From assembly GCA_902785295.1 (NCBI GenBank), contig CACZYK010000052.1, positions 1-32,795 on the forward strand: a DNA stretch of 32,795 nt. Direction: 5' to 3'. Under the pieces are notes generated by a model. It was given only the letters and a program-made list of their open reading frames with translations, did not search any database and was not told the DNA's origin. Below, piece by piece: positions 109 to 28,400 of this stretch (position 1 is the stretch's first letter; each line of letters starts with the position of its first letter). This DNA is from an uncultured Clostridium sp. (GTDB lineage Bacteria; Bacillota; Clostridia; Clostridiales; Clostridiaceae). Position numbers and translations under genes: made by a program.

Positions 109-1641
109 ATGAATTATGAAGAAAAATTTCAAGAAATAATAAAATTATTATTAAAAAAGGCTAAAAAGAAAGATTCTAAATACATAATATGTACTTACTT
201 AGAAATACAAAAACATTTTTATAAGAAGTATAAAGAAACTATAACTTATAATGATATTACTGATATTATCAATAATGGAATTGATTACTATGATGATAAT
301 AATAAATTTATTTTAAGTGATGACTCTTCTAAAAAATATAAAATAGGTATATCTAATATTGATTTTAATGATAATGATGAAAATAATAATATTTGTTTTT
401 TATATGAAGATACCTCTAAAATTGATGATAATATATCTAAAAGAGAAGAAGAAATAAATAATCTCATAATTAAAAGGAAAAGATTATTAGCACCACTTTT
501 AATTCTAGCTACACTAAGAAGGTACACTTCAAAAAATAATCCATTAAATAAAAAAGCTATATTTGAATATTTAAATCATTCTTATTCATCTTATTTTCTT
601 GAAGAAAGCTCAAAAGAAGGAAGAAAAAATCCTAATGAAATATTATCATATTCAAATTTTACAAGAATATTAAATGATTTATCTTATGAAAGATTTTTTA
701 GAGGAATTGAGGAAAAAGAAATTCTTGATTTAGAACTTACAGTTTTTAAAAATGGAAATGAAGATAAATATTATACAAAATCTATATTTACTGAAAATGA
801 AATTCTTTTATTATCTGGTGCTATTGAAGTTTATAATTATATTACAGCAGAAGATACTATCAATTTAATTTCTAAACTAAATTCTATTCTACCCAATTCA
901 TCAAAATATGATTTAAACTCTACTGATTTGGAAAAATTTAAATTTTACAAAATTGATGCTCTAAAATTAGATGAAGATAAATCAAATGGAACATTAAATA
1001 ATATAAAAATTATTAGAGAGGCCATTAAAGAAAAAAAGAAGTTGTGTATAAATTATGGTAAGTATTCTGTTGAATACGACGGAAAAATCGCTAAAAAATT
1101 CAATTTAATACCTAAAAATAAAAATTTAATTGAAGAAGATATTTCTCCCTATGAGTTAATGTGGTCAAATGGTTATTATTATCTTATTGCTTCTAATTTC
1201 CAAAAAAGCATTGCACATTATAGAGTTGATAGAATAATTAATTTGAAAAAAATAGATGATTCTATTACCCCAATAAAAGAAGTAGTTGATGATACACAAG
1301 AGAAATATTATTTGTCAGGTAATAAAATAAATATAGGTAAATATAGAGCTACTCATCCAATTATGTATTATGGAGAAATTAAAAGAATTGAAATTGAGTG
1401 TAAAAATTATTTAATAAATAATATTTTAGATTCTTTTGGATTTAATGTAGAAATAAAAAAGATATCTGATGAATGGTGTAAGGTGTTTATTAATTCTACA
1501 GAAGAAGGTGCTGTATTATGGGCGACCCAATATTGTACTGACTGCAAAATTGTTTCTCCTAAAACTGCTATAGAAAAAATTAAACAAAGACTAGAAAAAG
1601 GACTTTCTAATTATTCTAAAGAAAAAGATAAGGAAGACTAA
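109..1641 (+). CDS. WYL-domain protein, probable transcriptional regulator
   Basis: The 510-residue protein has a WYL domain at about residues 300-400, recognisable from ISPYELMWSNGYYYLIA (about 345) and HYRVDRI (about 370). A winged-helix-like region lies around 135-200 (NKKAIFEYLNHSY onward), preceded by a very charged, Asn/Asp/Lys-rich N-terminus. WYL domains bind ligands, including nucleic acids, and commonly regulate defence or DNA-damage genes. An in-frame stop at 94-96 makes the ATG at 109 the only plausible start, yet the ribosome binding site is weak. It converges on the EamA gene and sits at the left edge of the accessory region. Which genes it controls is unknown; the nearby dynamin operon is on the other strand and has its own promoter. 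Longer than the usual ~320-residue WYL repressors. Confidence 0.8.
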   Translation: MNYEEKFQEIIKLLLKKAKKKDSKYIICTYLEIQKHFYKKYKETITYNDITDIINNGIDYYDDNNKFILSDDSSKKYKIGISNIDFNDNDENNNICFLYEDTSKIDDNISKREEEINNLIIKRKRLLAPLLILATLRRYTSKNNPLNKKAIFEYLNHSYSSYFLEESSKEGRKNPNEILSYSNFTRILNDLSYERFFRGIEEKEILDLELTVFKNGNEDKYYTKSIFTENEILLLSGAIEVYNYITAEDTINLISKLNSILPNSSKYDLNSTDLEKFKFYKIDALKLDEDKSNGTLNNIKIIREAIKEKKKLCINYGKYSVEYDGKIAKKFNLIPKNKNLIEEDISPYELMWSNGYYYLIASNFQKSIAHYRVDRIINLKKIDDSITPIKEVVDDTQEKYYLSGNKINIGKYRATHPIMYYGEIKRIEIECKNYLINNILDSFGFNVEIKKISDEWCKVFINSTEEGAVLWATQYCTDCKIVSPKTAIEKIKQRLEKGLSNYSKEKDKED

Positions 1642-1658
1642 TTCTTCCTTGTATCTTT
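1624..1658. terminator. Bidirectional terminator between WYL and EamA genes
   Basis: Stem AAAGATA-AGGAAG (1624-1636) pairs with CTTCCT (1644-1649) and TATCTTT (1652-1658), with a two-base bulge at 1650-1651 and a 7-base loop. It overlaps the stop codons of both convergent genes, so it can end transcription from either side. T-rich sequence follows in the + direction. Confidence 0.65.
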
Positions 1659-2070
1659 ATAATACCATAAGTAATGTTCCTGCTCCAATTAGCACACAAC
1701 CAATAATAGATTTTGTTGTAAACTCTTCATGTAAAAATACAAAAGCTAAAATTAATGTAATTACTACACTAAGTTTGTCAATTGGAACTACTTTTGAGGC
1801 ATTTCCCATTTGTAATGCTTTATAGTAACAAAGCCAAGAGGCACCAGTAGCTAGTCCTGATAAAATCAAAAACACCCAACTTTTCTTACCTATATCACTA
1901 ATTCCACCTTGAGTATTAGTTAAAAACACCATACCCCAAGACATAATTAACACAACTGTTGTCCTTATTGCAGTAGCAAGATTTGAGTTTACACCATCAA
2001 TTCCTACTTTTGCAAGAATAGATGTTAAAGCTGCAAATACAGATGACAAAATGGCAAATAATAACCACAT
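1657..2070 (-). CDS. Small EamA/DMT-family transporter
   Basis: 137 residues forming a single EamA domain with about five hydrophobic helices (MWLLFAILSSVFAALTSIL at the start; VITLILAFVFLHEEF and IIGCVLIGAGTLLMVL near the end). The motif LHEEFTTKSIIGCVLIGAG is typical of the drug/metabolite transporter superfamily. Single-domain members are thought to work as dimers; the substrate cannot be predicted. The start is supported by GAGGAG seven bases upstream. It has its own promoter (2121-2149). It was probably the gene next to glxK before the dynamin module entered, because a remnant of the glxK tail lies just upstream. Confidence 0.85.
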   Translation of the reverse strand: MWLLFAILSSVFAALTSILAKVGIDGVNSNLATAIRTTVVLIMSWGMVFLTNTQGGISDIGKKSWVFLILSGLATGASWLCYYKALQMGNASKVVPIDKLSVVITLILAFVFLHEEFTTKSIIGCVLIGAGTLLMVL

Positions 2071-2207: not shown

Positions 2208-2242
2208 TAATTACGTCATAATATCTTAATAATGAATATATA
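2208..2242 (-). pseudogene. Remnant of the 3' end of a glycerate kinase gene (direct repeat with 9693-9727)
   Basis: 32 of 35 bases match the last codons of the intact glxK at 9693-9727, same orientation. Read in the glxK frame it gives SLLRYYDVI, as in glxK. Two of the three differences (2215, 2233) fall at third codon positions and are silent; the third (2238) changes D to Y. It is therefore a diverged coding tail rather than a chance match. The two copies bracket the entire dynamin operon. Confidence 0.75.
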
Positions 2243-2252
2243 CCTATTACAA

Positions 2253-2579
2253 TTAATAATTAATATTTCTTAATTTTTTCTTTTCTAAGCATAAATTATT
2301 TCTTTTTTCTTTTAACTTTTTTATATATTCATCCATAATTTTTTTGTTTTCTACTGTAAAATCTTTTTTTATATTATTATACTCAAGTTCAAACTCATAT
2401 AATGAACAATCTAGTTCTGCCATTTGCATTATTATTTCCTTACTTTTTATTCTTCTACTTTCAGCTTCAACTTTTACTAAATCATTATTAGCTTTTTTTA
2501 TTTTTTTTATCATTTGTTCTCTTGCTGCATCTTTACTAATTGCAGAAATTATTTTTATTATATTTGATATATCTTCCAT
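2253..2579 (-). CDS. Small coiled-coil protein, last gene of dynamin operon
   Basis: 108 residues, highly charged, almost all predicted helix (KKIKKANNDLVKVEAESRR, then an ELEYNNIKKDF region and a basic KKLKEKRNNL end). There is no signal peptide or membrane segment. No family recognised. Its ATG shares one base with the stop codon of the 140-residue gene upstream (TAATG), which implies translational coupling and a linked role. Together with the other two small proteins it may be a subunit or regulator of the GTPases; this is inference from context. Confidence 0.65.
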   Translation of the reverse strand: MEDISNIIKIISAISKDAAREQMIKKIKKANNDLVKVEAESRRIKSKEIIMQMAELDCSLYEFELEYNNIKKDFTVENKKIMDEYIKKLKEKRNNLCLEKKKLRNINY

Positions 2580-3001
2580 TAATCAATATCTCCAATTTGT
2601 GATATTATTGTTGTAATAACATTTGAAAATTCTTCACCTGTTAAGTTAGAATTATTATTTTCATAAAAATCTTTCATCATTAATCTAATCATTTCCATCT
2701 TACTAACAATTGAATTTGTTTCAGCATTTTTCTTTAATGCATAGGCCTCTGCTTCTGCTAGAATCTTTTTTCTATCTTCCTTCATTTTATCTAGTATAGC
2801 CTGAGATTGCACATTCATCTTTTTTATTTCAATTATATCAGAAGCTAAATTTAATATTAATTCAAAATTATCTACAATGGCATTTCCCATTTTTGAATTA
2901 GTTTTTTGAGGCATTTCATTAATATCTATTTTTTGTAATTCTTCATTATTTTTAACTTTCATCCTATTACTTTTCACTACTTCTAATCCATTATTATCCA
3001 T
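2579..3001 (-). CDS. Small helical protein of dynamin operon, function unknown
   Basis: 140 residues. The first ~40 are polar and likely disordered; the rest is helical, with a heptad-like stretch around residues 75-110 (AILDKMKEDRKKILAEAEAY). The stop codon of the 599-residue GTPase lies two bases upstream of its ATG, and its own stop overlaps the next start, so it belongs to the operon. The ribosome site is weak (GAGG about 13 bases away), suggesting reinitiation after the GTPase gene. No family recognised. Confidence 0.65.
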   Translation of the reverse strand: MDNNGLEVVKSNRMKVKNNEELQKIDINEMPQKTNSKMGNAIVDNFELILNLASDIIEIKKMNVQSQAILDKMKEDRKKILAEAEAYALKKNAETNSIVSKMEMIRLMMKDFYENNNSNLTGEEFSNVITTIISQIGDID

Positions 3002-3003
3002 GT

Positions 3004-4803
3004 TTATTCGCCAACCTCTTCTTTAATTTCATTAATCATATCCATTAATTCTAAAACTTCTTCCTCTTTATTAAAGCTTTCATTGTATTCATATCTTTCT
3101 TTACAACTTTGTTTTATTTCTTTTAATGTTTTAATATTTTCTTCTTTTAATATTTCTAAGTCATTTTTTATACTTTTCTCTGTTTCAGTATGCCAATCAT
3201 TTAATACATCATCTAGCTTTTGTTTTAATTTGCCTTTCCATATTGAATAATCTATAGCAGTACTTATTAATTCAGTAAACACCACAGTTGCAGTAGAAAG
3301 TGCCCTTACAGATGTTGCTCCTATTTTACTAAGAATATGCTTTAATGCATTATGTGTTTCACGTTTAAATGTATGTCCAAAAGCATCTCCTACTACCTTA
3401 AGTGCATGGGAAGCCGCATTTGCTATACCAGCTCCAACTTTTCCATTTCCTCCAAATTGTGTAAAGTATTTTTTAAGTCCTCCCTTAACTAAATTTTTGC
3501 CAATATCTTTACTAATGCCTTTTATTGCAAGTTCTGTTGCTGTTTCAAAACAAACTGTGATTTTTTTATTAAAATTTTCAATTTCTGTATTTAAATAATC
3601 ATCAACTTGCTTGTCAATATAATCAAGTTCTATTTCAATATATCTTTGTATTTCTAATATTTCTTTATTAGATATGTAATATAGTAAATGATTATTTATA
3701 TATGCTATCATTTCATCTTTTTGACTAGCACTTTCTTCATCAATAGCTTTATCAATAGTATCTTTTATATTCTTTTTTGCATTTAGCATAAGTTCAGGTA
3801 CTTTCTTTTGAATTTTATCAAATCCAGGTGTAATATACTTTGATATACATTCATCAATCTTATCTCCAAATTCTTCAGTATGTTTTTTTATTTTTTCTTG
3901 AGTCTCCCTTGATAGTTTTATTCCTTCATATAGTTTAAATACTTCTTCTTTAGATTTTTCAAACAATTCATTAATATATTCATTAAATGTACTTTCTAGT
4001 TGTTTTTTTCTAGTATCTGAATTTACTCTTTCTCCAACATACTGCCATAATTTAATTGCTTTTGGCATAGGATATTCATCCTCATTCTCACATTGCTCTG
4101 TTTTTATAAAAAATGTTTTTACATCTTCATGAAGAATATCATTAACATATTGTTTTATCTCTTTTATTCTTCTATCTTTTACATTTAAATTTTCTGGACA
4201 TCTATTAATGACAAGTATTATTTCAACATCATCTCTTATAAGTTGCTTAAGGAATCCTAAAAAAGAATAATCATTTTCTTGTATACCAATTCTATAATTA
4301 ACTATATATAATATAACATCACTATTTGGTATAAATTCTTTTAAAACTTCTTCATGTTCCCTAATTATTGAACCATAACCTGGAGTATCAAATAATCTCA
4401 TATTATTCAAATTACTAATTGAAGTCTTAGTTATTAATTTAACTCTTTTTAATTCCTCATCTGGATTCAAAGTTAAGTCCTTAAAAGCTTCATAATCTAA
4501 TTCTTCAATAGTTGCATTTTTATTAATTGCATAAAATTTATTTTCATCTATATCTTTTTTAAATTCAATTTCAGTTATTGCTCCTGTAGATGGTGCTGCA
4601 CTAACTTTAAGAATATTTTGTTGAATAAGTCCATTAATTATAGTTGACTTACCACTACTTGTTTCGCCAAGCATAATAATATAACTATCAGGATTCATTA
4701 ATCTTTCTTTTAAAAATTTTGATAAATTTATTAATTTTTCATTATTAATTTTTTGTACAAGAGCATCCACTTTATTAAATTTTTCTAATAATGCTTCATT
4801 CAT
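3004..4803 (-). CDS. Dynamin-like GTPase (third of three)
   Basis: 599 residues. The GTPase domain has G1 GETSSGKST (46-54), a switch-I threonine in APSTGAIT (70-77), G3 DTPGYG (139-144) and a G4-like NRCP (200-203) replacing NKxD. Long helices follow. Near residues 425-525 there is a Gly/Ala-rich, moderately hydrophobic region (ALKVVGDAFGH, ATVVFTELISTAIDYSIW) that could be a membrane-binding paddle. Bacterial dynamin-like proteins remodel or tether membranes, often as paired paralogues. Its start overlaps the end of the upstream GTPase gene by 8 bases, with AAGGAG upstream, so the two are likely made in fixed ratio and may assemble together. Confidence 0.85.
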   Translation of the reverse strand: MNEALLEKFNKVDALVQKINNEKLINLSKFLKERLMNPDSYIIMLGETSSGKSTIINGLIQQNILKVSAAPSTGAITEIEFKKDIDENKFYAINKNATIEELDYEAFKDLTLNPDEELKRVKLITKTSISNLNNMRLFDTPGYGSIIREHEEVLKEFIPNSDVILYIVNYRIGIQENDYSFLGFLKQLIRDDVEIILVINRCPENLNVKDRRIKEIKQYVNDILHEDVKTFFIKTEQCENEDEYPMPKAIKLWQYVGERVNSDTRKKQLESTFNEYINELFEKSKEEVFKLYEGIKLSRETQEKIKKHTEEFGDKIDECISKYITPGFDKIQKKVPELMLNAKKNIKDTIDKAIDEESASQKDEMIAYINNHLLYYISNKEILEIQRYIEIELDYIDKQVDDYLNTEIENFNKKITVCFETATELAIKGISKDIGKNLVKGGLKKYFTQFGGNGKVGAGIANAASHALKVVGDAFGHTFKRETHNALKHILSKIGATSVRALSTATVVFTELISTAIDYSIWKGKLKQKLDDVLNDWHTETEKSIKNDLEILKEENIKTLKEIKQSCKERYEYNESFNKEEEVLELMDMINEIKEEVGE

Positions 4804-6616
4804 TTAATATTTTCTCCTTTTCAGCAAAATAATTTAAATCTTCAGTTAATTCTTCAATTTTATATTTTGGAACATAATCTTTTTGTAATTTTTCAATATT
4901 TTTTCTCTTTAAATCTTTATACTCTTTTCTCCTACTTTCTACATATGATTCGCAATATTCTGAAACCATATCATAAATTTTTTTATAATTTTCAACTATA
5001 TTTTCATTAAATTGATCTTCTAAATCATCTAGACATTTTTGTATTTCACGCTTTGTACTTTCTGCTCTTGTATTTGTAATTTTATTTTTCATTCCACTTC
5101 CAAGTATATTAGCTACTAATCCAACAGTAGCACCTGCTACTAGTCCAACTACAAAGCCAACTGGTCCTGCTACACTACCTAAAGTTCCAGCTTCAAGTGC
5201 TGTAGTTACAGCACTACTTACTGTAGTGATTACTCCAATGCCTCCAATTCCTCCAACTAAATTCATAACTATTGGAATTCCCTTTTCAAATTTAAATGAT
5301 TCACCATTATTAAAATACATTGCATCAATTGACATATCATTTTCATTTTCAATAATATTTCCTAGTTCTTGTATTTGTTCTTTTAAATCAATAATAATTT
5401 TGTTACTAATTTTTATATATTCATTTATAAGCTCAGAACAATATTCTTCTTGATAATGTTTAAAAGCTTCACTAAGTTTATCCCCATCAACAATGCCACT
5501 ATCTATAACTCTAAATGTACTTTGTCTTATATTTTTTACACAATTTTCACTTTCACTTCTTGCAAATTTTTTAATTACCTTTTCATTTTCATCTAAGCTA
5601 TCTTCTATTTTTTCTATTTGTTTTTCAATATTTTTAGTGTTTTTAAAAAAAGTATCTTCCTCTTTTTTTAATTGTTCTTCAAGGTCTTTTTTACTCATTT
5701 TATATTCATCTATTCTTTTACCTATAAACATTTTGCATGATGAAAGTGATAATTTTATTTTTTTATATAAATTTACCTCTATATTTTGGCTCCAATTTAA
5801 TACAGCTTCATTTGTTTTATCAATTAACATTTTTATATTAGATTTTTCAATTAATTCATTATTATTATTAATTTTTCCTTTAGCTGCATCATAAGCATTT
5901 ACAACAATTATCTCATCATTAAAAGGAACTTGTATTTCATCAGCTATTTTTCTTAATACTTTAGTATTAAATTCAACAGATTCTTTTATTTCACGTTTTG
6001 ACTCTCCAAAAGAATTTTGAACAAATATAACAGAAGAAAATTGACTCCATAATCCTTTAATAAATATTTCTTCTTTTCTTCTTATTGTTGGAGTTGTTGG
6101 AATTACAAATATTGCACTGCATAAGTTTTTAACATATCTCATTGTTGTTTTTTCATTATTCTTTGTTAAACTTCCTACTCCAGGTAAATCAACAATAGTA
6201 ATTCCATTCTTTAACATCTGAACATTTCTATAAAGAACAATATGTGAAACATTTTTTTCATTTGCTTTATTATACATATTATCAACATATTCGTTTAACT
6301 CTTCACGAGTATTAACTTCTTTAGTTTTATTTGAATCATTAAAATAAACTATAGCTTTCTCTTCTATTCCATATTTAACTTCAACAGGAACACAAGTTGT
6401 TTCATCTGCATCATTAGGTAAAATATTTTCACTTAAAAATGCATTAATTAATGTGCTTTTTCCCATTCCTTGCATTCCTAACACAGGTATAATTATTTCT
6501 GCATTTTTTGAATTAAGAATAATGCTTTTAAGATTTTCACCCATTTTCATATTTTCTGAATATTTATCCATAAGTGAAAACAATTTTTTATCTTCTACTA
6601 AATTAAATACATCCAT
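4796..6616 (-). CDS. Dynamin-like GTPase with C-terminal membrane hairpin (second of three)
   Basis: 606 residues from the ATG at 6616, chosen because AAGGG lies about nine bases ahead; an ATG three codons earlier abuts that site. G1 GMQGMGKST (47-55), switch-I DETTCVP, G3 DLPGVG (143-148) and a G4-like VQNSFGE (N201) are visible. Coiled helices follow (about 300-420). Residues about 447-507 form a long Gly/Ala/Val-rich hydrophobic hairpin (VMNLVGGIGGIGVITTV; VGFVVGLVAGATVGLVANIL), typical of the membrane-inserting segment of bacterial dynamin-like proteins. It is the most clearly membrane-attached member of the operon. Confidence 0.88.
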   Translation of the reverse strand: MDVFNLVEDKKLFSLMDKYSENMKMGENLKSIILNSKNAEIIIPVLGMQGMGKSTLINAFLSENILPNDADETTCVPVEVKYGIEEKAIVYFNDSNKTKEVNTREELNEYVDNMYNKANEKNVSHIVLYRNVQMLKNGITIVDLPGVGSLTKNNEKTTMRYVKNLCSAIFVIPTTPTIRRKEEIFIKGLWSQFSSVIFVQNSFGESKREIKESVEFNTKVLRKIADEIQVPFNDEIIVVNAYDAAKGKINNNNELIEKSNIKMLIDKTNEAVLNWSQNIEVNLYKKIKLSLSSCKMFIGKRIDEYKMSKKDLEEQLKKEEDTFFKNTKNIEKQIEKIEDSLDENEKVIKKFARSESENCVKNIRQSTFRVIDSGIVDGDKLSEAFKHYQEEYCSELINEYIKISNKIIIDLKEQIQELGNIIENENDMSIDAMYFNNGESFKFEKGIPIVMNLVGGIGGIGVITTVSSAVTTALEAGTLGSVAGPVGFVVGLVAGATVGLVANILGSGMKNKITNTRAESTKREIQKCLDDLEDQFNENIVENYKKIYDMVSEYCESYVESRRKEYKDLKRKNIEKLQKDYVPKYKIEELTEDLNYFAEKEKILNE

Positions 6617-6630
6617 ACTAATCATCCCTT

Positions 6631-6936
6631 CTATATTTCACTTGTAGTTTTTTCTTTAATCATTCTTTCTATCTTCTTTAATATTTTATTATTTTCTTCT
6701 AAACAATCAAATATTTCTTCAAATTGTTTAGATAACTTTTCTATTTTTCTATTTTGTTCTTCTATTTTTTCTATAATTTCATCATTAATACCACTTTCTA
6801 TTTCCTTCATTATACCTTTAGTGGCTTCATTCACTTCTAATAGAATTGATTTTTCCTCTTTTTTTTCACTTTTTTTTATTTCCACAGTTTCAAGTTTGTT
6901 GTTAGCTCTTCTAGTTCTTCCCACATTTTTTTTCAT
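6631..6936 (-). CDS. Small coiled-coil protein between two GTPase genes
   Basis: 101 residues with a basic N-terminus (KKNVGRTRRANNK) and a clear heptad coiled coil over about residues 45-95 (IEKIEEQNRKIEKLSKQFEE; NNKILKKIERMIKEK). Preceded by AAAGGAG eight bases before the ATG. It lies 17 bases after the first GTPase gene and a few bases before the second. Likely an oligomerisation or adaptor subunit for the GTPases. No named family recognised. Confidence 0.65.
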   Translation of the reverse strand: MKKNVGRTRRANNKLETVEIKKSEKKEEKSILLEVNEATKGIMKEIESGINDEIIEKIEEQNRKIEKLSKQFEEIFDCLEENNKILKKIERMIKEKTTSEI

Positions 6937-6953
6937 ATTTCTTCTCCTTTAAT

Positions 6954-9416
6954 TTAAATTGTTCTAATTATTTGTGCTAGTATTTCCTCTACCTCTTTAT
7001 TTATTAAATAATTAAATCCTCTTTGAAGCCTTCCAAGTATAATAGTTTCATTTTTTAAGGTTTCAGAATTATTTATTTGACATTCAACAGCTGCAAGATT
7101 ATAAATTGGATTTTCATGATTTATTAGTATAATATTTTTGTTACTAACTTCTATTTTTTTAGGTAAAGAAATCATATTTTCTATAGCTTCACATACTCCT
7201 TCTCCATTTATTATTTCTGTGAAGTCTTGTATTACAAATCCTATAAAGTCCTCTTTTTTTATTTTGTTAAATATTCCACTTTGCGTAATTTGTGTTAAAG
7301 CAGAACCATATTGTGTTGTATTAGTTAAAATATAAATATTATTAAATTCATTTTCTAACATTAATCTTTCTATTTCTTCTTTTAATGGATTGTAATATAT
7401 TAAGCAATTATCAACCTTTATGTTTTTATATTCCTCTAAATTTTTAAATTCTTCTTCAGGTAAAATTATTCCAAAAAATCTTTTAAAAAATGAAATAATA
7501 CAACTAACATCCCATCCAATAATAATTGTTCTTCTTTCATATACATTATATTTTTTTAATACCAATTCCAAAGTTTTAATAGAAATATTAGTTAAAACTT
7601 TATCTGCAATTTTAGCTAAACTATATGCAATTTTATTAACTCTAACCTTTTCAAGTTTTATCTTCATATTAGTTGTTGTACTTTTAACAATATTATTTTC
7701 TAAATTTTTATATGTAAAATTAACTGAACTAATTAATTTATCTAAATTAACTTTTGTATCTTTCAGCTTGTTTACTTGTATTGCTTTACCTTTTTTCTCT
7801 TGAAAAGCACTTAATCTATTTTCATATTGCTCTAATAATTGATTTATTAGGGCTTTGTTTTTTCTTTCCCATAAATCTATTTGCTTAACATATATTTCTC
7901 TAGCATATTTTATATAATCCTTAATTTCTTGTTTAGTTTTTACATTATCTACAACTTCAACAGGTACCTTCTTAATTTCATATCCCCAATCTGTATTAAA
8001 CAAATCTCCAAAAAAGCGTGCAATTCCTGAACCAAAGCCAGTTTTTTTAACAAATTTATCCTCATATTTTATTTGCTTTTTTAGTTTTAATTCAGGCATA
8101 CTTGCTAATCCATTAAAACTAACTATGTCTCTTTTAGGTATATTTAATTTTTCTGCAACATTAGTTATATATTTATTAAAATTTCTTATTTCATTTATTA
8201 TTCCTTCTTCACACATTTTCACATTATTTTTTACATTTTCTATATCTTTATCTGTATAATTTTTAAATTTGCTGAAAATACTTTTTTTACCATTTTTTAA
8301 ATCACTAATTTTTTCAAAATTCTTTGTTAAAATACTATAATCTAAACTTAATAAAAGAATTAACTCTTTTAATTTATTATGTATACAATCAAGTTTATTA
8401 TTAATTTCTTTATCAAGACCTTCATATTCAAAAGAAAGATTTTCAAAACTTCCTTCTAATTTTATAGCTTCATCTATTTGATTAACAATTTTTTTTAATC
8501 TATTTATAATTGAACGTATTCTTTGTTCTTCAATAACAGGTCTTTCTTTATCAATTGTATTTACTACAGTATCAATAAATTCTTTGTATTGTGATTTTAA
8601 CATTAACTCTTTGTCATTACTTTCACGTCCTTGAAGTGCTCTTATAGCAGACATTTGAACAATTTTAACACTGTTTTTATTTTCTATTTTTGAATTATTA
8701 ATTATCCTTTCCACTCTTTTGCGATGTTCATCTGCAACTTGCTGAACATTTTTAGTTCCATCTAGACTTGGTTTTAAGGAATCAAGCATATTTTGCACAA
8801 CTATCATAGGACACTTATATTCTGAAATATTATTTAAAATTGAACGCATCTTATCATCACTATTAGTCTTTAAAGTGGTAACAAATATACATACATCTAT
8901 TGTTGGCAATAATTGTTTTAATGTTAATTCTTCATGTACTTGTAAACCATAAGCATCTAATCCTGGACTATCAATTAAAAGAATATCATCTCCAAATGCA
9001 AACTTAGGAGTAGATAACTCAATTTCTACAACATTTTCTTTATTTTTAGTGTTAAAATTTTCATCACTATATTTCTTAATATTTGAAGATGTTAAGTTTT
9101 CACCTTTCAATATTTCTGTCTTTCTATTTTCAAAATATACTATTGCTTGTTTTTTTTCATTCTTAGAACAACATACAAGCTGACTTGAAGATGGTTTTAC
9201 TGCCATTGTAAGAAAACTATCCCCTAATATTGCATTAATTAATGTTGATTTTCCACTACTTGTTACACCTATAACTCCAACACGAATTTTATCTTTATTC
9301 CATTTAACCTTATTTTGTGAAAAGCTATCAAGATCATGCTGGAATTTTTTCGAAAGTTCACTATCTTCTGAAAGAATTTTTATTGCTTTATCAACTATGT
9401 TAACTGCTTTTATCAC
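6954..9416 (-). CDS. Large dynamin-like GTPase (first of three)
   Basis: 820 residues, first gene of the operon, probably starting at GTG (9416) behind AAGGAAGTGA. G1 GVTSSGKST (50-58), a Ser-rich switch-I region (PSSSQ, 75-79), G3 DSPG (149-152) and G4 NMLD (209-212) define a dynamin-superfamily GTPase. Helical regions follow. An unusual C-terminal part from about residue 690 (NIYILTNTTQYGSALTQITQ; EGVCEAIENMISLP) reads like a compact α/β domain with no family I recognise. No long hydrophobic hairpin is evident, so it may be peripheral and depend on the second GTPase for membrane attachment. Confidence 0.85.
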   Translation of the reverse strand: MIKAVNIVDKAIKILSEDSELSKKFQHDLDSFSQNKVKWNKDKIRVGVIGVTSSGKSTLINAILGDSFLTMAVKPSSSQLVCCSKNEKKQAIVYFENRKTEILKGENLTSSNIKKYSDENFNTKNKENVVEIELSTPKFAFGDDILLIDSPGLDAYGLQVHEELTLKQLLPTIDVCIFVTTLKTNSDDKMRSILNNISEYKCPMIVVQNMLDSLKPSLDGTKNVQQVADEHRKRVERIINNSKIENKNSVKIVQMSAIRALQGRESNDKELMLKSQYKEFIDTVVNTIDKERPVIEEQRIRSIINRLKKIVNQIDEAIKLEGSFENLSFEYEGLDKEINNKLDCIHNKLKELILLLSLDYSILTKNFEKISDLKNGKKSIFSKFKNYTDKDIENVKNNVKMCEEGIINEIRNFNKYITNVAEKLNIPKRDIVSFNGLASMPELKLKKQIKYEDKFVKKTGFGSGIARFFGDLFNTDWGYEIKKVPVEVVDNVKTKQEIKDYIKYAREIYVKQIDLWERKNKALINQLLEQYENRLSAFQEKKGKAIQVNKLKDTKVNLDKLISSVNFTYKNLENNIVKSTTTNMKIKLEKVRVNKIAYSLAKIADKVLTNISIKTLELVLKKYNVYERRTIIIGWDVSCIISFFKRFFGIILPEEEFKNLEEYKNIKVDNCLIYYNPLKEEIERLMLENEFNNIYILTNTTQYGSALTQITQSGIFNKIKKEDFIGFVIQDFTEIINGEGVCEAIENMISLPKKIEVSNKNIILINHENPIYNLAAVECQINNSETLKNETIILGRLQRGFNYLINKEVEEILAQIIRTI

Positions 9417-9466
9417 CTATATCACTTCCTTTTTCATAATTCTACATTATTATATATTTTATTTAT

Positions 9467-9475
9467 ATTATACCA
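9467..9475 (-). promoter_or_regulatory. Extended -10 promoter of the dynamin operon
   Basis: On the minus strand TGGTATAAT (9475-9467) is a perfect extended -10. The best -35 with a 17-base spacer is only TTTATA, so the extended -10 probably compensates. The start codon is about 45 bases downstream of the likely transcription start. Confidence 0.55.
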
Positions 9476-9537
9476 TTATTTTTGTAAAATATAAATCAAT
9501 ATTGTAATATTTTCTATTTAAAAAGAAATTTTTATTA

Positions 9538-9604
9538 ATAGTTTTGTTTATTTTAAAATTTTATTTAAAAATAAGTGATAAAATTTTAAAATAAACAAAA
9601 CTAT
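9538..9604. repeat. Perfect 27-bp inverted repeat
   Basis: Arms 9538-9564 and 9578-9604 are exact reverse complements around a 13-base loop. Each arm begins ATAGTTTTGTTTATTT or its complement and is nearly all A/T. It lies between the dynamin operon promoter and the end of glxK, so it could be a strong hairpin terminator for glxK, an operator, or part of the recombination boundary. Confidence 0.8.
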
Positions 9605-9625
9605 AATACAATAAATATATAAAAA

Positions 9626-9653
9626 AGTGTATTTAATATTTTCTTAATGCACT
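9626..9653 (-). terminator. Possible terminator of glxK
   Basis: AGTGTATT (9626-9633) and AATGCACT (9646-9653) pair with one imperfect position. In the minus direction the hairpin is followed by TTTTTT, fitting an intrinsic terminator 35 bases after glxK, weakened by a C·A mismatch. Confidence 0.45.
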
Positions 9654-9687
9654 CTTTAAAATTTACCTGACTAAATAAATTATTTTT

Positions 9688-10815
9688 TTATTTAATTACA
9701 TCATAATATCTTAATAACGAATCTATAGTTTTTTCTAAATTCTCCTTAGCTTTAAATCTTGATATAGAATAATCTTCTGCTTTTTGATTTATTGAGAATA
9801 TAGCACTTACGCCTTCATCATAGACTTTTTCTGCACCTTCACCTATTGAACCTGCCACAACTATTACAGGAATATTTTGTTTTTTTGCTCTTTTTGATAT
9901 TCCTATTACTACCTTGCCATTTAAACTTTGACTATCTATTTGTCCTTCTCCAGTAAAGATTATATCAGCATCACTAATTAAATTATCAAAATCAATTAAA
10001 TCTAGTATTATTTCTATACCTGATTTTAACTCTCCATTAAAAAAGGCACAAACTCCTGCTCCAAAGGCACCTGCAGCTCCCGAACCTTTTATGTTAGATA
10101 CGTCTTTATTTAAATTTTTCTTTATTTTTTCAGATAATGCCCTTAAATTGTTATCTAACATTTTTACCATATTTTTATCTGCACCTTTTTGTGGAGCAAA
10201 TACAAAAGCTGCTCCATTTTCTCCATACATAGGATTATCTATATCACACATTGCAGTAACCTTGCAGTTTTTAAGCTTTTCTAATGTTTTACTTATATCT
10301 ATATATTCTATCTCATTTAGATTTTTTCCAACAGGAATAAACTCCTCTCCATTTTTATTTTTAAAAACTGTTCCTAAAGCAGAGGCTGCTCCCACTCCAC
10401 AATCATTAGTACAGCTTCCACCAAGACCTATAAATATTTCATTACATCCATGTTCTATTGCATGGCTTATAATTTCTCCAACTCCATAGGTAGAAGTTGT
10501 TGAAGGGTTTTCTCTTCCCTCTGCACTTACAAGCCCTACAACTTGAGCTACTTCTATAATTGCCTTATTTTTTATCCTTCCATAATAAACATCAATCACT
10601 TCGCCAAAAGCATTTTTTACCTTTAAATTTACTTTTTCTGCTTTTAATGAATATATAAAAGTGTCAACTGTTCCCTCTCCACCATCTGCTATAGGAATCA
10701 TTATGGCATTACACTTTGGGAAAAATTCATTTACTTTTTCTTTTATAATATTACAAACTTCTATGGAAGAAAGACTTCCTTTAAAAGAGTCTGGAATAAT
10801 AACACATTTATTCAC
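9688..10815 (-). CDS. glxK: Glycerate kinase (GlxK/GarK family, glycerate 2-kinase)
   Basis: 375 residues, the usual length. Diagnostic motifs are PDSFKGSLSS at residues 8-17, PIADGGEGTVD, GLGGSCTNDCGVGAASALG and FTGEGQIDSQSLNGKV. The family phosphorylates D-glycerate with ATP to give 2-phosphoglycerate, feeding lower glycolysis; it is cytoplasmic. GAAGTG precedes the ATG. Probably a core gene: its last codons are duplicated at 2208-2242 on the far side of the dynamin operon, so its 3' end served as the insertion or recombination point while the reading frame stayed intact. Confidence 0.93.
   Translation of the reverse strand: MNKCVIIPDSFKGSLSSIEVCNIIKEKVNEFFPKCNAIMIPIADGGEGTVDTFIYSLKAEKVNLKVKNAFGEVIDVYYGRIKNKAIIEVAQVVGLVSAEGRENPSTTSTYGVGEIISHAIEHGCNEIFIGLGGSCTNDCGVGAASALGTVFKNKNGEEFIPVGKNLNEIEYIDISKTLEKLKNCKVTAMCDIDNPMYGENGAAFVFAPQKGADKNMVKMLDNNLRALSEKIKKNLNKDVSNIKGSGAAGAFGAGVCAFFNGELKSGIEIILDLIDFDNLISDADIIFTGEGQIDSQSLNGKVVIGISKRAKKQNIPVIVVAGSIGEGAEKVYDEGVSAIFSINQKAEDYSISRFKAKENLEKTIDSLLRYYDVIK
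9693..9727 (-). repeat. glxK-tail direct repeat, right copy
   Basis: 35 bases inside the end of glxK that match 2208-2242 at 32 positions, 7485 bases apart and in the same orientation. They enclose the dynamin operon. See the remnant at 2208-2242. Confidence 0.75.
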
Positions 10816-11503: not shown

Positions 11504-11586
11504 ATTCTCATCTCCTGTATATTTTTGTTTGTTTTTTTGCATTATTATATATTTTTATCTATATTATACTATAATTTTTATAGAAT

Positions 11587-11629
11587 AAAAGGACTATTGT
11601 AATACTTTATATCTTACAATAGTCCTTTT
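11587..11629. terminator. Strong terminator after the dam gene
   Basis: 16-bp perfect stem: AAAAGGACTATTGTAA (11587-11602) pairs with TTACAATAGTCCTTTT (11614-11629). It begins one base beyond the stop of the methyltransferase and ends in T's on either strand, separating the transcription of methyltransferase and endonuclease genes. Confidence 0.85.
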
Positions 11630-11630
11630 A

Positions 11631-12538
11631 TTAATAATTTTTAATTATTATTTCTGAAATTTTTCCTCTTCCATTTCCTTTACTATTAATGCTTCTTGCT
11701 GCTTTTACTCTTTCTATATTAAAATCATTGTAAAGTTCATCAAAGAATTCATCTTCTTCATCTGTATTTTTTGGGTCTGAATTGCTTTCCATAAATTTAG
11801 CACCTACTTTATTTATGTATTTACAAAATTCATTAAGTCTTATTTGAGTATCATCATTAAATTCTTCTTTTGAGTAATCTTTAAAACTTCCTTTATCTTT
11901 TAAAGGTCTATATGGAGGATCCATATAAATAAATGTATCTTTATTTATATATTTTTTTACTATTTCAAAATCTCCATTTAATATAATAGTATTTTTTAAT
12001 GCTTTACTTACTGATAATATATTATCTCTTTCAAAAGAAGTTACCTTTTCTTTTTTACCAAATGGAACATTAAATCCACCTTTTTTATTTTCTCTGTATA
12101 AGCCATTAAAGCAACTTTTATTTAAAAATATCATAAAAGAGGCATGGTTTATTTCATCTTTTCCTATAGCATCATAATTTATTGTATTTTTTCCTTTATT
12201 AAATTCATCTCTAATATAATAATAAAATTCTTGTTTTTCTTCTAAAGAAGAAAGATTATTATATTTTGTATCATTGTTTTCTAATATATTTATAAGTTCC
12301 TCTGCATTATTTTTTATAATTTTATAGGTTAATATAAGCTCCTTATTGATATCACTTATAATTAAATTGTCAAATTTATACTTAGATAGCATATAAAAAA
12401 ATACTGCTCCTCCACCTATAAATGGCTCTATATATGTTTTTATTTTTCCTTCTTTAATAATCTGCTTTCTATTTCAGGTAATAGTTTTGCCTTTCCCCCT
12501 GCCCATTTCAAAAAAGGTTTTGCTTCTAAACAATTCAT
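11631..12538 (-). pseudogene. dam: Dam-type adenine N6 methyltransferase, frameshifted
   Basis: The N-terminal part starts at 12538 (GGAGG six bases upstream) with MNCLEAKPFLKWAGGKAKLL, the D12-class SAM-binding start. It stops at TAA (12442-12440). The other frame continues with KTYIEPFIGGGAVFF (FxGxG-type motif) and reaches MDPPYRPL, the catalytic DPPY motif, before stopping at 11631. The span is 908 bases, one short of 303 codons. Adding one A to the A5 run at 12447-12443 restores a continuous 302-residue protein reading KKEKIKTYIEPF, as expected for the family. So the lesion is a one-base homopolymer loss: a true mutation, a phase-variable or slippage-corrected site, or a sequencing error. 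The product would methylate GATC adenine and protect against the neighbouring MutH-like nuclease. Confidence 0.85.
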
Positions 12539-19485: not shown

Positions 19486-19567
19486 TATTTTTTAACTAAA
19501 GTAAAAGTTTTCTTAAGCTACAAATTTTATTATTAAGCCAACAAAGATATAATTTTCTAATAAAATA

Positions 19568-22348
19568 TTATTCTATTTCAAGTTTAGTAAGCAAAAATGC
19601 TTCTTCCTCACTATTAAGAATTTCACCTTTTATCATTTTAATAGCAACTTCTTTTGCTTTCATACATTTTGTTGAATCAACACCTTCGATTGTATCTATC
19701 ACATCATCAAATTTGTGAGTTTCATAATTATTTTGTCTGTTATCACATATTAATCCAAGAGAAATTACACAATTTACAAGTTCCTCAAGTGTTAAATTTT
19801 CACTCTTTATAACATATTTTAATTGTTTAACAATATTTTCTTCCCAACTTAAATTTAAAACATTACATTCATCTTTTCTAAGTGCAATTCCCATTGCATA
19901 TGAAGTAAATTGTAGATTACTTTGTCTTCTCTTCATTACCTTTTTAATGTCATTTTCTAATTGTTGTTTTAACCAATAAACATCTGTCTTAGTTTTTGCA
20001 TGTGAATATAAACAAGAATGATAATATTTACTATTATTATGAAGTGCAGAAAGTTTCTCCATATCATTTTCATTTGCACATACACTTAATGTATAAATAG
20101 CTTGATTATTTGTTGATACCTTAGGACCATTATCAGTAATACCTAAAAGTTCACTCCTTAACTGTAACATACAACAATTTGCAAGTTTTCTCTTTTCAGT
20201 ATCTTTCCATGTGTAGCCAATTTTTCTTGCGATAACAAATAATCTTTGTTTTTCCTCTTGACTTGAACTTTCATCAAGAGCTTTTAATATTACTTCTGCA
20301 AAATCCTCTTTATTTTGAGCATTACAGATATTTTTTACTGAAGATTTAATTTTTTTAGCTATATTGATACCACTTGGCTTATTTCTACATCTTTCATAGT
20401 TTTTACAAAGTTGAAGCATATTATTTATTTCATCCTTTGGTTGAAGCTTACTTCCACTTGGTGCTATGATTTTTGTCTTAATATTAGAAGATTCATTATT
20501 ATCAATATTTATCTCAACATAACCTTCTTCAATTTTTTCAAGTCCATTGGTATCATTGCTTGTCCATGCTTTCATTGTGATTACTTTATTGTTATTCATA
20601 TAAATTTCAAAAGCCACATATGCTCCATCTGGATACTTATTCTTAAAGATAATATTACCATTTGCAATAATTCTATATGTACCATCAAGATTACGACTTT
20701 TAATAGGAATAGCTATCATATTCTGTCCAGGATTTATTTGAAATCCTGTCATAACTTCAGATTTATATGGAAGTTCAGCACCTGTAGGTATAATTTTATG
20801 AACACCTCCATTTTTAACTCCTAGATATAAACTATCATTTAAAATACTCTTTCCCCACTCAATAGGCATATATGAATTTAATGGTCTTGTCTTTACTCTT
20901 TCATCATTTACTTTTTCATTCCCCTCTTCTTCTCCAATAATTCTCATATTGTCTTTAATTTCATCATATTTATGTAAATAATAATGATAAACAGCTGCTC
21001 CTCTTGCTACAGCTTGGTCTGGGTCAAGGGCTTCAATTGGCTTAAAGCCAAAAAATTTTTCAAGTCTTTCAGTTACCATATAGAACTTAGACATTCCACC
21101 ATTAACAATAACTGCATCTATGACTACATTTTCCACGTTCATTTTTTTAGATGCTTTATCTAAAACATCTAAGATAGGATAAATAATATTTCTTGTAGAT
21201 GAAATACTATCTATTCTTTTATAATCTTCAAAAACAAGATTATCTGCCATAAATGTACTTAAAATTGATTCAACCTCTTCTTTTGTAAATGTATCATCAT
21301 AGGACAAACCACCTGGCATATTACCACCAGTTGGTGCACTAATTTCATCCTCATAATCATCCCAACCAGAATCAGAACAATAATCTTCACTACACTTTTC
21401 ACTTATCTCAAGTTTTAAAAATTCAGCGTATGCCCTAAGTTTTGGCATAATCATATCTTTTTCTCTCTCTATTTTTGAAATAATCTCTTTACCTTTGTTT
21501 GAATATTGTTTTTTATATCTTTCATACATAGCCTTTGCTATTTCTTCATCAAAATCATCTCCACCAAGAAGTGTATATCTATTTGTGGCAATCTCATTTA
21601 CCTCTAAAACCTCCTTTAAATTATCTCTTCTTTTTATTTTATGCATAGTAATATCTAAAGTTCCACCACCTAGGTCAAACACTAATACATTTTTCTCTTC
21701 ACTTAAATCTAATATATGACTTGATATTTCGCCATTATTTATTTGATTAATCAAATCATAAATTACAGCATTTGGCTCAGATAAAAGAATAGGTCTTTCA
21801 CTTCCATCAGAATTTTTTGTTTTTATGCCAGCTAATTTAGCAGCATCTATTGTTGCCTTACACATAGATGAATCAAAATTTGCAGGTACAGTAATAACTG
21901 CATCTGTTATTTCAGTTCTATAAATATTAGATGTTGCTTTAAGCATATGCTTTAATATTCTTGATGAAATTTCAGCTGGTGTTTTATCAGGAACATCAAG
22001 TGATAAACCTTCTGCAAAAGGTTTACCCATTTGACTTTTAATAGATTTTGCAACTAAATGAGGTCTTAATTGATATTGAAACTTAGCAAAATCACCTACT
22101 AATGGTTCATAATTATTTTCTTCTCTATAGTAAACACAAGATGGCAATGTAGGTTTCTTTTGTTTTGTAAATTTTACTTCTGAAGATACTGAATTATACA
22201 TATCTACAGCTCTTGGTATTTCCACAACCTTACTTACTATATCACCATTAGGCTTTACATTAATTGTAGCAAGAACAGAATTTGTTGTTCCTAAATCTAT
22301 TCCAACACATAAATCATTATGCTTTAAATCATCATTACTATTAATCAT
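19568..22348 (-). CDS. Divergent Hsp70-family chaperone with long C-terminal helical region
   Basis: 926 residues from the ATG at 22348, with AAGGAGG eight bases ahead; a longer frame reads back into the previous gene and is unlikely. ATPase motifs: GIDLGTTNS (16-24), FDLGGGT (224-230) and the adenosine motif VNGGMSKF (415-422). A 30-residue acidic and Gly-rich insert (about 318-352, CSEDYCSDSGWDDYEDE) interrupts the nucleotide-binding domain. A β-sandwich-like part spans about 490-640. Residues 640-926 are helical and Cys-rich, with no DnaK-type lid or EEVD-like tail, and are not recognised. About 300 residues longer than DnaK. It overlaps the GrpE-like gene by 8 bases, implying a dedicated exchange factor. 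Not the housekeeping dnaK, since no dnaJ or hrcA is nearby. Confidence 0.88.
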   Translation of the reverse strand: MINSNDDLKHNDLCVGIDLGTTNSVLATINVKPNGDIVSKVVEIPRAVDMYNSVSSEVKFTKQKKPTLPSCVYYREENNYEPLVGDFAKFQYQLRPHLVAKSIKSQMGKPFAEGLSLDVPDKTPAEISSRILKHMLKATSNIYRTEITDAVITVPANFDSSMCKATIDAAKLAGIKTKNSDGSERPILLSEPNAVIYDLINQINNGEISSHILDLSEEKNVLVFDLGGGTLDITMHKIKRRDNLKEVLEVNEIATNRYTLLGGDDFDEEIAKAMYERYKKQYSNKGKEIISKIEREKDMIMPKLRAYAEFLKLEISEKCSEDYCSDSGWDDYEDEISAPTGGNMPGGLSYDDTFTKEEVESILSTFMADNLVFEDYKRIDSISSTRNIIYPILDVLDKASKKMNVENVVIDAVIVNGGMSKFYMVTERLEKFFGFKPIEALDPDQAVARGAAVYHYYLHKYDEIKDNMRIIGEEEGNEKVNDERVKTRPLNSYMPIEWGKSILNDSLYLGVKNGGVHKIIPTGAELPYKSEVMTGFQINPGQNMIAIPIKSRNLDGTYRIIANGNIIFKNKYPDGAYVAFEIYMNNNKVITMKAWTSNDTNGLEKIEEGYVEINIDNNESSNIKTKIIAPSGSKLQPKDEINNMLQLCKNYERCRNKPSGINIAKKIKSSVKNICNAQNKEDFAEVILKALDESSSQEEKQRLFVIARKIGYTWKDTEKRKLANCCMLQLRSELLGITDNGPKVSTNNQAIYTLSVCANENDMEKLSALHNNSKYYHSCLYSHAKTKTDVYWLKQQLENDIKKVMKRRQSNLQFTSYAMGIALRKDECNVLNLSWEENIVKQLKYVIKSENLTLEELVNCVISLGLICDNRQNNYETHKFDDVIDTIEGVDSTKCMKAKEVAIKMIKGEILNSEEEAFLLTKLEIE

Positions 22349-23432
22349 TTTCTTTTTCCTCCTTAACTTTTGGTCTTGAAATTTGAATATTTTTATCTTT
22401 ATAAATCCATCCTGGAGAAACAACCTTTACCTTCTTAGTATCTTTAGTAGATATAAATGGTGTTCCTTCATAATTACAAAATTCAACATCTTTAGCAATA
22501 ACCTCTTTAACCATATTAATCTTCATAATTGGTTCTATATGACTATCTCTTACAAATTGAATTAATTTTTTTACCATAATTAAAAGCCCATTAATCTCAA
22601 TAGGAAGCTCATAATTTTTCTTTCTAAGTTCATCAATTCCTCTTTTAACTACAAGAAGCTCATCTAAAATACAACCATATTTTTCTGAATTTAACCTTGC
22701 AAAGAAATCTGTAAGTTCTCTTATTTTACTTTCTTCTAATTGTTCCTCAAACTCATCTTGTAAATCCTGTAACATTATATTTGTTCTTTCTAATGTATTT
22801 TCTAATTGACTTATTCTTTGTAATGCCTGTTTGTAAGATATTTTCTCTTGAAGTGTATTATTTTTTACTTTATCTTTATCCTGAGTAAAGCCATACACAT
22901 AACTAATAGCATCTACCATCTCATAGAAAAAGAACTTACATAAAGTATTTCCTAATGAATATAAATTTTCCTTATCATTAAATACATCAATTTCAGGATA
23001 CTTTTCAAAAATCATTATTGCTACTATACGTTCTTGAGACATATGAAACTTTCCATTTTTAAGTGAAGGCTCTTTTCTAATTTTTTCAAACTTCTCAAAA
23101 GAAGCTTCATCTCCTTCAATTACCTTTTTAAAATACTCTGTTACCTTATTTGCCCACTCTAATAATTCCACTCTTTCAACAGGATTTCCCATTCTTCTCT
23201 TCCTAAATATTTGAATAACTTCATATCCATTTAAGTTATAACCATATTTATTATTCATCTCAATTGCACATTGTGTAGGCTCACTACTAAAATTATGACA
23301 AAGCACAGAAAATAATCTATTTTCCATTACGATTTCATTATTTATTGATTTTTCCTTTTTAACCTTTCTAAGCATTGCTTCATGAATTTTATTTATTACT
23401 TCTTTTACTTTTTTATTTTCTACATTAATCAT
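22341..23432 (-). CDS. GrpE-like nucleotide exchange factor with extended N-terminus
   Basis: 363 residues, almost twice GrpE. The C-terminal third reads as GrpE: a helical bundle (CILDELLVVKRGIDELRKK, matching the LLPVLDNLERA block), then EGTPFISTKDTKKVKVVSPGW and YKDKNIQISRPKVK, matching the GrpE β-domain GxPFDP...HEAV...GY...RPAKV. The central part is a long coiled coil (about 200-250). The N-terminal ~190 residues are helical with no recognised family and probably bind a partner. GGAGG precedes the ATG, 17 bases after the MBL gene. Its coupling to the Hsp70 gene supports the assignment. Confidence 0.7.
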   Translation of the reverse strand: MINVENKKVKEVINKIHEAMLRKVKKEKSINNEIVMENRLFSVLCHNFSSEPTQCAIEMNNKYGYNLNGYEVIQIFRKRRMGNPVERVELLEWANKVTEYFKKVIEGDEASFEKFEKIRKEPSLKNGKFHMSQERIVAIMIFEKYPEIDVFNDKENLYSLGNTLCKFFFYEMVDAISYVYGFTQDKDKVKNNTLQEKISYKQALQRISQLENTLERTNIMLQDLQDEFEEQLEESKIRELTDFFARLNSEKYGCILDELLVVKRGIDELRKKNYELPIEINGLLIMVKKLIQFVRDSHIEPIMKINMVKEVIAKDVEFCNYEGTPFISTKDTKKVKVVSPGWIYKDKNIQISRPKVKEEKEND

Positions 23433-23449
23433 TTCTAACCTCCAATTAA

Positions 23450-24598
23450 TTATAATTTATATATTTCCCCTTCTTCTGCAAAAACAAATTGGGTTCTACA
23501 TTCTCCATCGAGCATAACAGTTTGTTCTATTGTATATTCATCACAACTACGCTCTTTTGGACAATGAACTATATATACCTGTTTTGGGTTAATCTTTTTT
23601 ATAAACCTTTTCATATCTTGAAAATCATCATGAAGTGAAAAATCAACCTTTATACATTTATAAAGTTTACTAGCACTACACTTATTTTCTGATGTAACAT
23701 ATATGTGAGGAATATTTATAGACTTTCCATAAACAACATGATTATTTTCATTTAATATAGGTATTGATAATTTTTCAAATTTCTCAACTATAGGCATTAT
23801 AGATTTATCTATATATATTGGTACATTTTTAAAATTATACTCATTTAAGGTTTTAATAAATTCTATTCCCTTACTTAATTGTGGAACATAACACATTACA
23901 GAAGACCCACTAGTTACTTCACTATATATTCTTTTTATTGCACTATATAAGCTATTTGATTTTTTTATATAATTTGGATGCTTTGCATGTAAACCACACA
24001 TAATAATTGTATCTATTTTTATGTTATCAGGTATAAAATATCCATCCGTTAGAAAGGTTTTATCAACAGAATAATCACCTGTATACAATATCTTTCTTTT
24101 CCCATATTCAAATAACATCATCATTGCACCTGGAATATGTCCTGCTGGTAAAAAAGTTACCGTATAATTTATAAAATCTAATGACTGCATATAACTTACA
24201 TTTATTACCCCATCTAATATCCTTTGAGCTATTAATCTTTCTTCCTCTGTTTTTATACTACCTAACATATAATCTTTATCATATAATTGATATTTAGCTA
24301 GTAATGATGTCATTTCAGTCATATAAACCTCAGGATTTCTTATACCTTTCAGTAATTTAAGCAAAAAACCTACATGGTCAATATGTGCATGGGATATAAA
24401 TACTTGATTCAATTGATTTAGACTTTCAAGAAATGATGATGTTAATAAAGAATATATATCAGGTTCAAAAACAACTCCATTTTCAATACCTATACCAGCA
24501 TCAAGAATAATATTTGCATTTCCAAGTCTTAAATAATAACAGCTTGCCCCAACTCTTTGACCCCCTCCAAGTGGCATAAAAAGTATCTCTTCATTCAT
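23450..24598 (-). CDS. β-CASP-like metallo-β-lactamase-fold protein
   Basis: 382 residues from the ATG at 24598, with AGGTG five bases ahead. MBL metal ligands are visible: SHAHIDHVG (69-77; H70, H72, D74, H75), H154 in PAGHIPGA and D175 in LYTGDYS. A β-CASP-like insertion follows, with a C-terminal VHCPKE that supplies the last histidine. The usual β-CASP motif A acidic residue (ExTYG) is replaced around MCGLHAKHPN, so it is a divergent member. RNase J and CPSF-73 relatives are nucleases acting on RNA or DNA. It lacks RNase J's C-terminal domain. First gene of the operon with GrpE-like and Hsp70 proteins, so a nuclease controlled by a dedicated chaperone pair is the natural inference. Confidence 0.82.
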   Translation of the reverse strand: MNEEILFMPLGGGQRVGASCYYLRLGNANIILDAGIGIENGVVFEPDIYSLLTSSFLESLNQLNQVFISHAHIDHVGFLLKLLKGIRNPEVYMTEMTSLLAKYQLYDKDYMLGSIKTEEERLIAQRILDGVINVSYMQSLDFINYTVTFLPAGHIPGAMMMLFEYGKRKILYTGDYSVDKTFLTDGYFIPDNIKIDTIIMCGLHAKHPNYIKKSNSLYSAIKRIYSEVTSGSSVMCYVPQLSKGIEFIKTLNEYNFKNVPIYIDKSIMPIVEKFEKLSIPILNENNHVVYGKSINIPHIYVTSENKCSASKLYKCIKVDFSLHDDFQDMKRFIKKINPKQVYIVHCPKERSCDEYTIEQTVMLDGECRTQFVFAEEGEIYKL

Positions 24599-24619
24599 AA
24601 TAACACCTGCTTTATTTTT

Positions 24620-24654
24620 ATTATACATACCTTAATTTACAGAATTGTAATTCT
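24620..24654 (-). promoter_or_regulatory. Promoter and candidate operator of the MBL-GrpE-Hsp70 operon
   Basis: A perfect TATAAT (24625-24620, minus strand) lies 22 bases before the start codon. The -35 region overlaps an inverted repeat AGAATT-GT-AATTCT (24641-24654). A dyad on the -35 suggests a repressor site. No CIRCE-type element is present, so HrcA control is not supported. Confidence 0.4.
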
Positions 24655-24859
24655 CATTTTTACTGAAAAATTTTCCATATAACTGCTTTTCAAAATATCA
24701 TAGTGCTTTAGAAAGCGTTTTCATTTTAAGCTTTATTTAACTTTGTCTATTTCTATACTTTATTCTATCATAGTTGAACTACATACACAATATATTCGCT
24801 ATTTTTTATCTTTTATTATTTATTATGATATTTTTTTACACAAAAATAAAATAAAAAAT

Positions 24860-24897
24860 CATTTCATAAAAGCACATTCTTTTGTTTCTATGAAATG
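24860..24897 (-). terminator. Terminator of the methyltransferase gene
   Basis: CATTTCATA (24860-24868) and TATGAAATG (24889-24897) form the outer 9-bp stem, with inner AAAG/CTTT pairing. In the minus direction it is followed by a T-rich ATTTTTTATTTTATTTTT. The rest of 24629-24974 is AT-rich without other recognisable features. Confidence 0.7.
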
Positions 24898-24974
24898 AAA
24901 TTCTATTTTTTATTATTTAAAAATATTCCTATTTGATTTGATTTAATTTATTCATACTAGTTCTATATTAAAAT

Positions 24975-28306: not shown

Positions 28307-28318
28307 TAATAAAATTAA

Positions 28319-28355: not shown

Positions 28356-28400
28356 CTAAAGATTACGTATGTACTATAATATAAAAACTATGTTTTGTGT

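Follow-up and report, generated by a model that had tools for sequence, protein, structure and literature searches.

Cis-mobilizable elements (CIMEs), which derive by deletion from an ICE or IME and can move once an incoming element has integrated in a flanking att site, have kept their att sites and lost their genes for recombination and transfer; in the account given in PMC7563491, the classical streptococcal CIMEs are 1.2-13 kb long and form part of composites whose sites are the 3' ends of rpmG, rpsI, fda and rplL, and the study described there was able to find CIMEs only where they adjoin other elements in tandem. In the LeoABC system of enterotoxigenic E. coli, as presented in PMC4159319, several dynamin-like genes lie side by side and the system affects vesicle release, and DynA of Bacillus subtilis is described as delaying phage lysis (PMC8844932). 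Here we describe a 7,485-bp islet with a dynamin operon at the 3' end of the glycerate kinase gene glxK, located in a 32,795-nucleotide stretch of DNA from an uncultured Clostridium sp. (contig CACZYK010000052.1; the whole stretch is hereafter the window). We read the islet as one of a known kind, CIME-like, with an unusual cargo. As in the CIMEs portrayed in PMC7563491, the islet is flanked by att-like direct repeats where a protein gene has its 3' end, the length of 7.5 kb falls within the range of 1.2-13 kb, and the cargo is without recombination or transfer genes; whereas those CIMEs form tandems with an ICE or IME, the islet stands alone, without a known parent, with glxK as its target and a dynamin operon as its cargo. 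A literature search found neither a published description of this islet nor a report of a glycerate kinase gene as an integrase attB or integration site.

A dynamin operon between two copies of the glxK 3' end

The intact glxK (9688-10815, minus strand; Pfam and TIGR00045 cut-offs passed), the target of the insertion, ends in a 35-base stretch that holds its last codons (..DVIK*; right copy, 9693-9727, minus strand) and recurs in the same orientation at 2208-2242 (left copy, minus strand) with 32 of 35 positions identical, as an earlier note on this DNA had claimed. The alignment can be widened to 42 nt (2201-2242 against 9686-9727) at 86% identity. In the glxK frame the left copy, which borders the side of the EamA-family transporter gene, reads ..YSLLRYYDVISKN (..YSLLRYYDVI, continuing to SKN* at 2199), in agreement with the proposal that it is the remnant of a coding tail; of the three differences, two leave the encoded residues of that frame unchanged, again as proposed, and the third is a change of GAT to TAT close to the outer edge. 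Written in the direction of glxK, the left copy is TATATATTCATTATTAAGATATTATGACGTAATTAGTAAAAACTAA and the right copy TATAGATTCGTTATTAAGATATTATGATGTAATTAAATAA. The left copy is attL/attR-like, and phages and ICEs that integrate at gene 3' ends have attachment sites of this appearance.

The repeat is confined to these two positions. The second-best match to the 35-base glxK tail within the window has 23 identical positions, and a 151-bp query spanning the left copy found two places only in the 3.2-Mb genome (E<=0.001; 40 of 232 first-look candidates scored), as expected from the earlier reading, which would have suffered from frequent matches elsewhere. The 23-base att pattern ACRTCATAATATCTTAATAAYGA occurs without mismatch twice in the window's genome (G000) and once in genome G087, and in no other of the 68 genus genomes; when up to three mismatches are allowed, some match is present in 18 of the 68. 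A scan for glxK found 146 relatives, of which 80 loci were kept, with about 0.1 to 10 kb of DNA downstream of the gene (at least 5 kb in 52 of the 80). A second glxK tail is unusual, because only one of these loci (L108) reaches 26 of 35 positions in its downstream DNA and none reaches 27 or more.

AT-rich DNA raises the number of chance matches and the window may stem from a metagenome assembly (151 contigs), and chance similarity or a false assembly join might thus produce such a repeat; we regard either as highly improbable. The best 35-base matches in 60 simulated first-order Markov windows of equal length reached only 22-24 positions, and the empty site described below fits both flanks. 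The longest run that is exact across the left copy, the right copy and the empty site is 17 bp (TTATTAAGATATTATGA; 2219-2235, with its second copy at 9704-9720), and this is also the longest exact stretch common to the two copies. Words used in assembly are usually longer than 17 bp, and false joining is disfavoured because the exact core is so short.

Between the two copies lies exactly one operon, as had been noted, with six genes on the minus strand in the order dynC-d101-dynB-dynA-d140-d108. Three genes encode dynamin-like GTPases, namely dynC (6954-9416; 820 aa; Dynamin_N 8.2e-15, 55.7 bits), dynB (4796-6625; 609 aa; 1.8e-22, 80.6 bits) and dynA (3004-4803; 599 aa; 3e-20, 73.3 bits; P-loop GETSSGKST). 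All three exceed the Pfam Dynamin_N cut-off of 27 bits and contain P-loop and DxPG motifs, as bacterial dynamin-like proteins do, and dynB has a match at 6.7e-17 to PDB entry 2j68, a bacterial dynamin-like protein of solved structure. The remaining genes encode small proteins: d101 (6631-6936; 101 aa) lies between dynC and dynB, d140 (2579-3001; 140 aa) has no family match, and d108 (2253-2579; 108 aa) is of unknown family. Coding bases make up 7,140 (95%) of the 7,485-bp unit and the other 345 are non-coding; composition does not mark the operon out (24% G+C compared with 25% in the window).

The non-coding right end of the islet (9417-9690, minus strand) includes a promoter-like site (9495-9467) and, upstream of dynC, a perfect, AT-rich 27-bp inverted repeat with a 13-nt loop (9538-9564 and 9578-9604), and no Rfam match was found in the window. 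The stretch at 9433-9545 is 80% identical over 103 nt to 11532-11641, which lies upstream of the MutH-like gene, and two genomes have a 289-aa gene whose upstream DNA is also 73-76% like that of dynC (L192 6535-6702; L193 1652-1773). The similar stretch includes the promoter-like site, and judging from these resemblances the three genes may possibly have a promoter common to defence-type cassettes.

An empty site in a close relative

The earlier note had supposed that EamA was once the neighbour of glxK and that a relative might carry one glxK tail directly before the EamA promoter region. Such a site exists in the single close relative found, an uncultured Clostridiales bacterium, RUG296 (contig ONGV01000101.1; L053, with which stretches of contig C188 of G087 are identical), whose glxK protein is 97% identical to that of the window. 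In L053 a single glxK tail (..SLLRYYDVISKN*, ending ..DVISKN*) is followed directly by the EamA promoter region and by EamA, which starts about 130 bases on. Positions 1-1121 of L053 align with the window's glxK at 95% identity and positions 1080-1686 with window 2242-1639, that is, with the left repeat, the intergenic region and EamA (1657-2070, minus strand), at 94% identity; at the repeat about 40 bp are common to both alignments. No match to dynB was found in G087 (E<=1e-3; genome 86% complete). The evidence for the empty site thus comes from one site in one close relative with a genome of that completeness: of the 68 genus genomes, G000 and G087 alone combine a glxK and an EamA at more than 90% identity to those of the window, and among the 80 glxK loci EamA was seen in L053 and, at about 6.5 kb from glxK, in L114. 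The displaced tail that adjoins EamA in the window shows that the order glxK-EamA is the older one.

The similarity between the window and L053 stops just beyond EamA, at 1639 (window 109-1641 against L053 1635-4938). Past this point the window has a convergent WYL-domain gene and L053 has genes for an AAA_5 ATPase and a DUF2357/PDDEXK_7 protein, a pair that we take to be McrBC/LlaJI-like and that has a 96% match in L192, which comes from a different contig of the window's genome.

With the empty site in hand, each copy of the repeat can be related to host sequence. The left copy tracks the host on the EamA side, differing from L053 by three changes in 52 nt, and the right copy tracks the host on the glxK side and diverges from the relative's sequence just past the 17-bp core. 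The left copy is therefore the original host tail, since it matches the end of the relative's glxK and runs on into EamA, and the ..DVIK* tail now on the intact glxK probably came with the islet.

The same comparison bears on two explanations that dispense with this exchange. One is an insertion with a target duplication of about 35 bp, by transposition or break-repair, followed by substitutions, so that both copies were at first pure host sequence. Three differences in 35 bp are comparable in scale to the 5% divergence that separates the window from its relative, and a duplication of this length with three substitutions would look nearly alike; against it, no transposase family was found in the islet (Pfam, NCBIfam) and, to our knowledge, target duplications of about 35 bp are not usual for bacterial transposons, and we consider it quite improbable. 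The other is that glxK was duplicated, or that the operon brought in a second glxK, after which a deletion left only the last codons of the older copy, without site-specific recombination. Tails of deleted genes do occur nearby in this group: two genes present in L192 (3880-5622) are missing from L193 (2640-2720). The second of them, complete in L192 with 281 aa, has left a short tail in L193 that looks in frame, and this gap looks like a plain deletion because there is hardly any repeat at the join, a few bases at most. At the glxK locus, however, the remnant would by chance need to be a 35-bp near-copy that exactly abuts the operon, and as far as the repeat the intact gene is 95% identical to its counterpart in the empty site, the last codons alone setting it apart, which makes this course of events unlikely in our judgement.

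Proposed origin of the islet and search for a recombinase

We consider it probable that site-specific recombination within the 17-bp core common to islet and gene placed the 7,485-bp islet in the last codons of glxK. Strand exchange would have taken place within this core, mediated by a site-specific recombinase, probably of the tyrosine type. The attachment site of the islet would encode nearly the same last codons together with a stop of its own, and glxK would therefore stay intact, and the original glxK tail would have been displaced to its present place beside EamA. The empty site and the in-frame tail thus support the earlier proposal that a module of about 7.5 kb entered at the end of glxK and regenerated the gene. 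We take the event to be a gain in the window's lineage, although the relative may equally have lost the islet by exact recombination between the repeats.

No families of recombinases, transposases or relaxases, and no genes for conjugation or mobilization, were found in the six islet proteins (Pfam and NCBIfam scans), and a comparison of the islet with the nine tyrosine recombinases of the window's genome gave nothing better than E=0.27, in line with the earlier statement that no integrase lies inside. The islet therefore differs from autonomous integrative elements (ICE, IME, prophage or satellite), which have their own integrase, and it shares with CIMEs the att-type flanking repeats (32 of 35 positions, with an empty site) and the lack of such genes. 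Large serine recombinases (PF07508) were not found in the window's genome, and in stretches of 12-19 kb around its nine tyrosine recombinases the best match to the 23-base pattern has five mismatches. A search for tyrosine recombinases in loci L053-L132 and L172-L191 gave one match, in L111, several kb upstream of glxK. Viral contigs contain neither the exact att pattern nor relatives of glxK and dynB, and the right end of the islet has no match in phages or plasmids. The 17-base core alone is present in 47 viral stretches; the best of these matches 30 of 35 positions of a string that admits either variant, recurs in several AT-rich contigs, and was taken as unrelated. Altogether, neither a parent element nor, beyond the copies in G000 and G087, the same att site was found in the 68 genus genomes, in the surroundings of tyrosine recombinases, in viral contigs, or in phages and plasmids, and the 345 non-coding bases of the islet leave no space for a remnant of a parent element.

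An islet of this composition could be a decayed, CIME-like element that has lost its integrase or a cassette that depends for its movement on an integrase acting in trans, and the former is the more likely of the two. It is doubtful that the islet represents a class of minimal single-operon cassettes that have no more than a gene-end attachment site and pass from host to host through integrases acting in trans; if this were true, whole membrane-defence operons would circulate without any recognisable mobility gene.

The six-gene set in other genomes

dynB was detected (E<=1e-20) in 23 of 225 genomes of the order, the window's own included. In two genomes of other genera (G127 and G198) dynB is 53-54% identical and all six genes are present in the same order, with small proteins at 40-58% identity; the neighbours of these two operons are unrelated, and the 27-bp inverted repeat upstream of dynC was not found in either. 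The operon in G198 (L330 6543-13826) lies between large serine recombinases, two of which have all three domains while others are present as fragments. In that genome a split WYL/WCX-type regulator precedes the operon and dynC is split over two frames.

The other 20 genomes, all members of the genus, have a dynB that is 35-37% identical. Of these distant cousins 19 were fetched, and all 19 have dynC, dynB and dynA in the same order as the islet, usually with another ORF between dynC and dynB; unlike the islet, they have no match to d140 or d108 and no clear flanking repeat. Flanking repeats were compared with 40 simulations at 22 loci (the window, L329, L330 and 19 of the 20 cousins, G073 being left out for its short contig), and only the window was clearly above the simulations (26 against 16); none of the 21 other loci had clear repeats, with L174 marginal (18 against 16). 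Relatives of dynB are also present in one phage record and 20 plasmid records, as partial matches below 60% identity. These loci suggest that the dynamin operon is cargo moved by more than one route and that the glxK site is, so far as seen, that of this islet alone.

Surroundings of the islet

Other defence-like genes are near. Immediately to the right of glxK are genes for a MutH-like endonuclease and for a D12 adenine methyltransferase, and a DpdF-like helicase lies at the far right. The methyltransferase (11631-12392) may miss an N-terminal part, because the Pfam profile was matched only from position 41. A 55-bp hairpin-like sequence at 28306-28360, next to the DpdF-like region, has a 93% counterpart at the end of contig C67 (L192 1-55). 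A second module at 19495-24973 encodes an Hsp70-like protein of 951 aa, a 363-aa protein without family and a 392-aa protein with a metallo-beta-lactamase fold, and is absent between the same flanks in contig C110 of G087 (L343 10712-10791 and 10788-11382); it has no att-like repeat, as the flanks overlap by about 4 bp and have no word longer than 10 nt in common.

Possible role of the cargo

The islet resembles LeoABC, as described in PMC4159319, in having several dynamin-like genes side by side, and differs from it by three whole GTPases with three small proteins and by host and context. Its gene order is not that of LeoA followed by split leoB/leoC, and matches of dynA, dynB and dynC to the PADLOC LeoA and LeoBC models are partial. 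Matches to the DynA model NF052648 (1187 positions) are likewise weak and partial, far below the 1600-bit cut-off. DynA of B. subtilis is, like the islet proteins, a dynamin-family membrane GTPase, and its account in PMC8844932 suggests a role for the cargo. Dynamin-like proteins remodel membranes. By this analogy, the products of the operon would form a membrane-remodelling dynamin assembly, which may plausibly be protective against phage or membrane damage.

The empty site shows that the three-dynamin operon behaves as a discrete unit, present or absent at the end of a gene that remains unharmed. The islet contains no gene that a mobile-element finder would flag, and integrase-based searches miss such islets. 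The six-gene dynamin set, common to three genera, is a candidate for a role in the response to phage or membrane stress.
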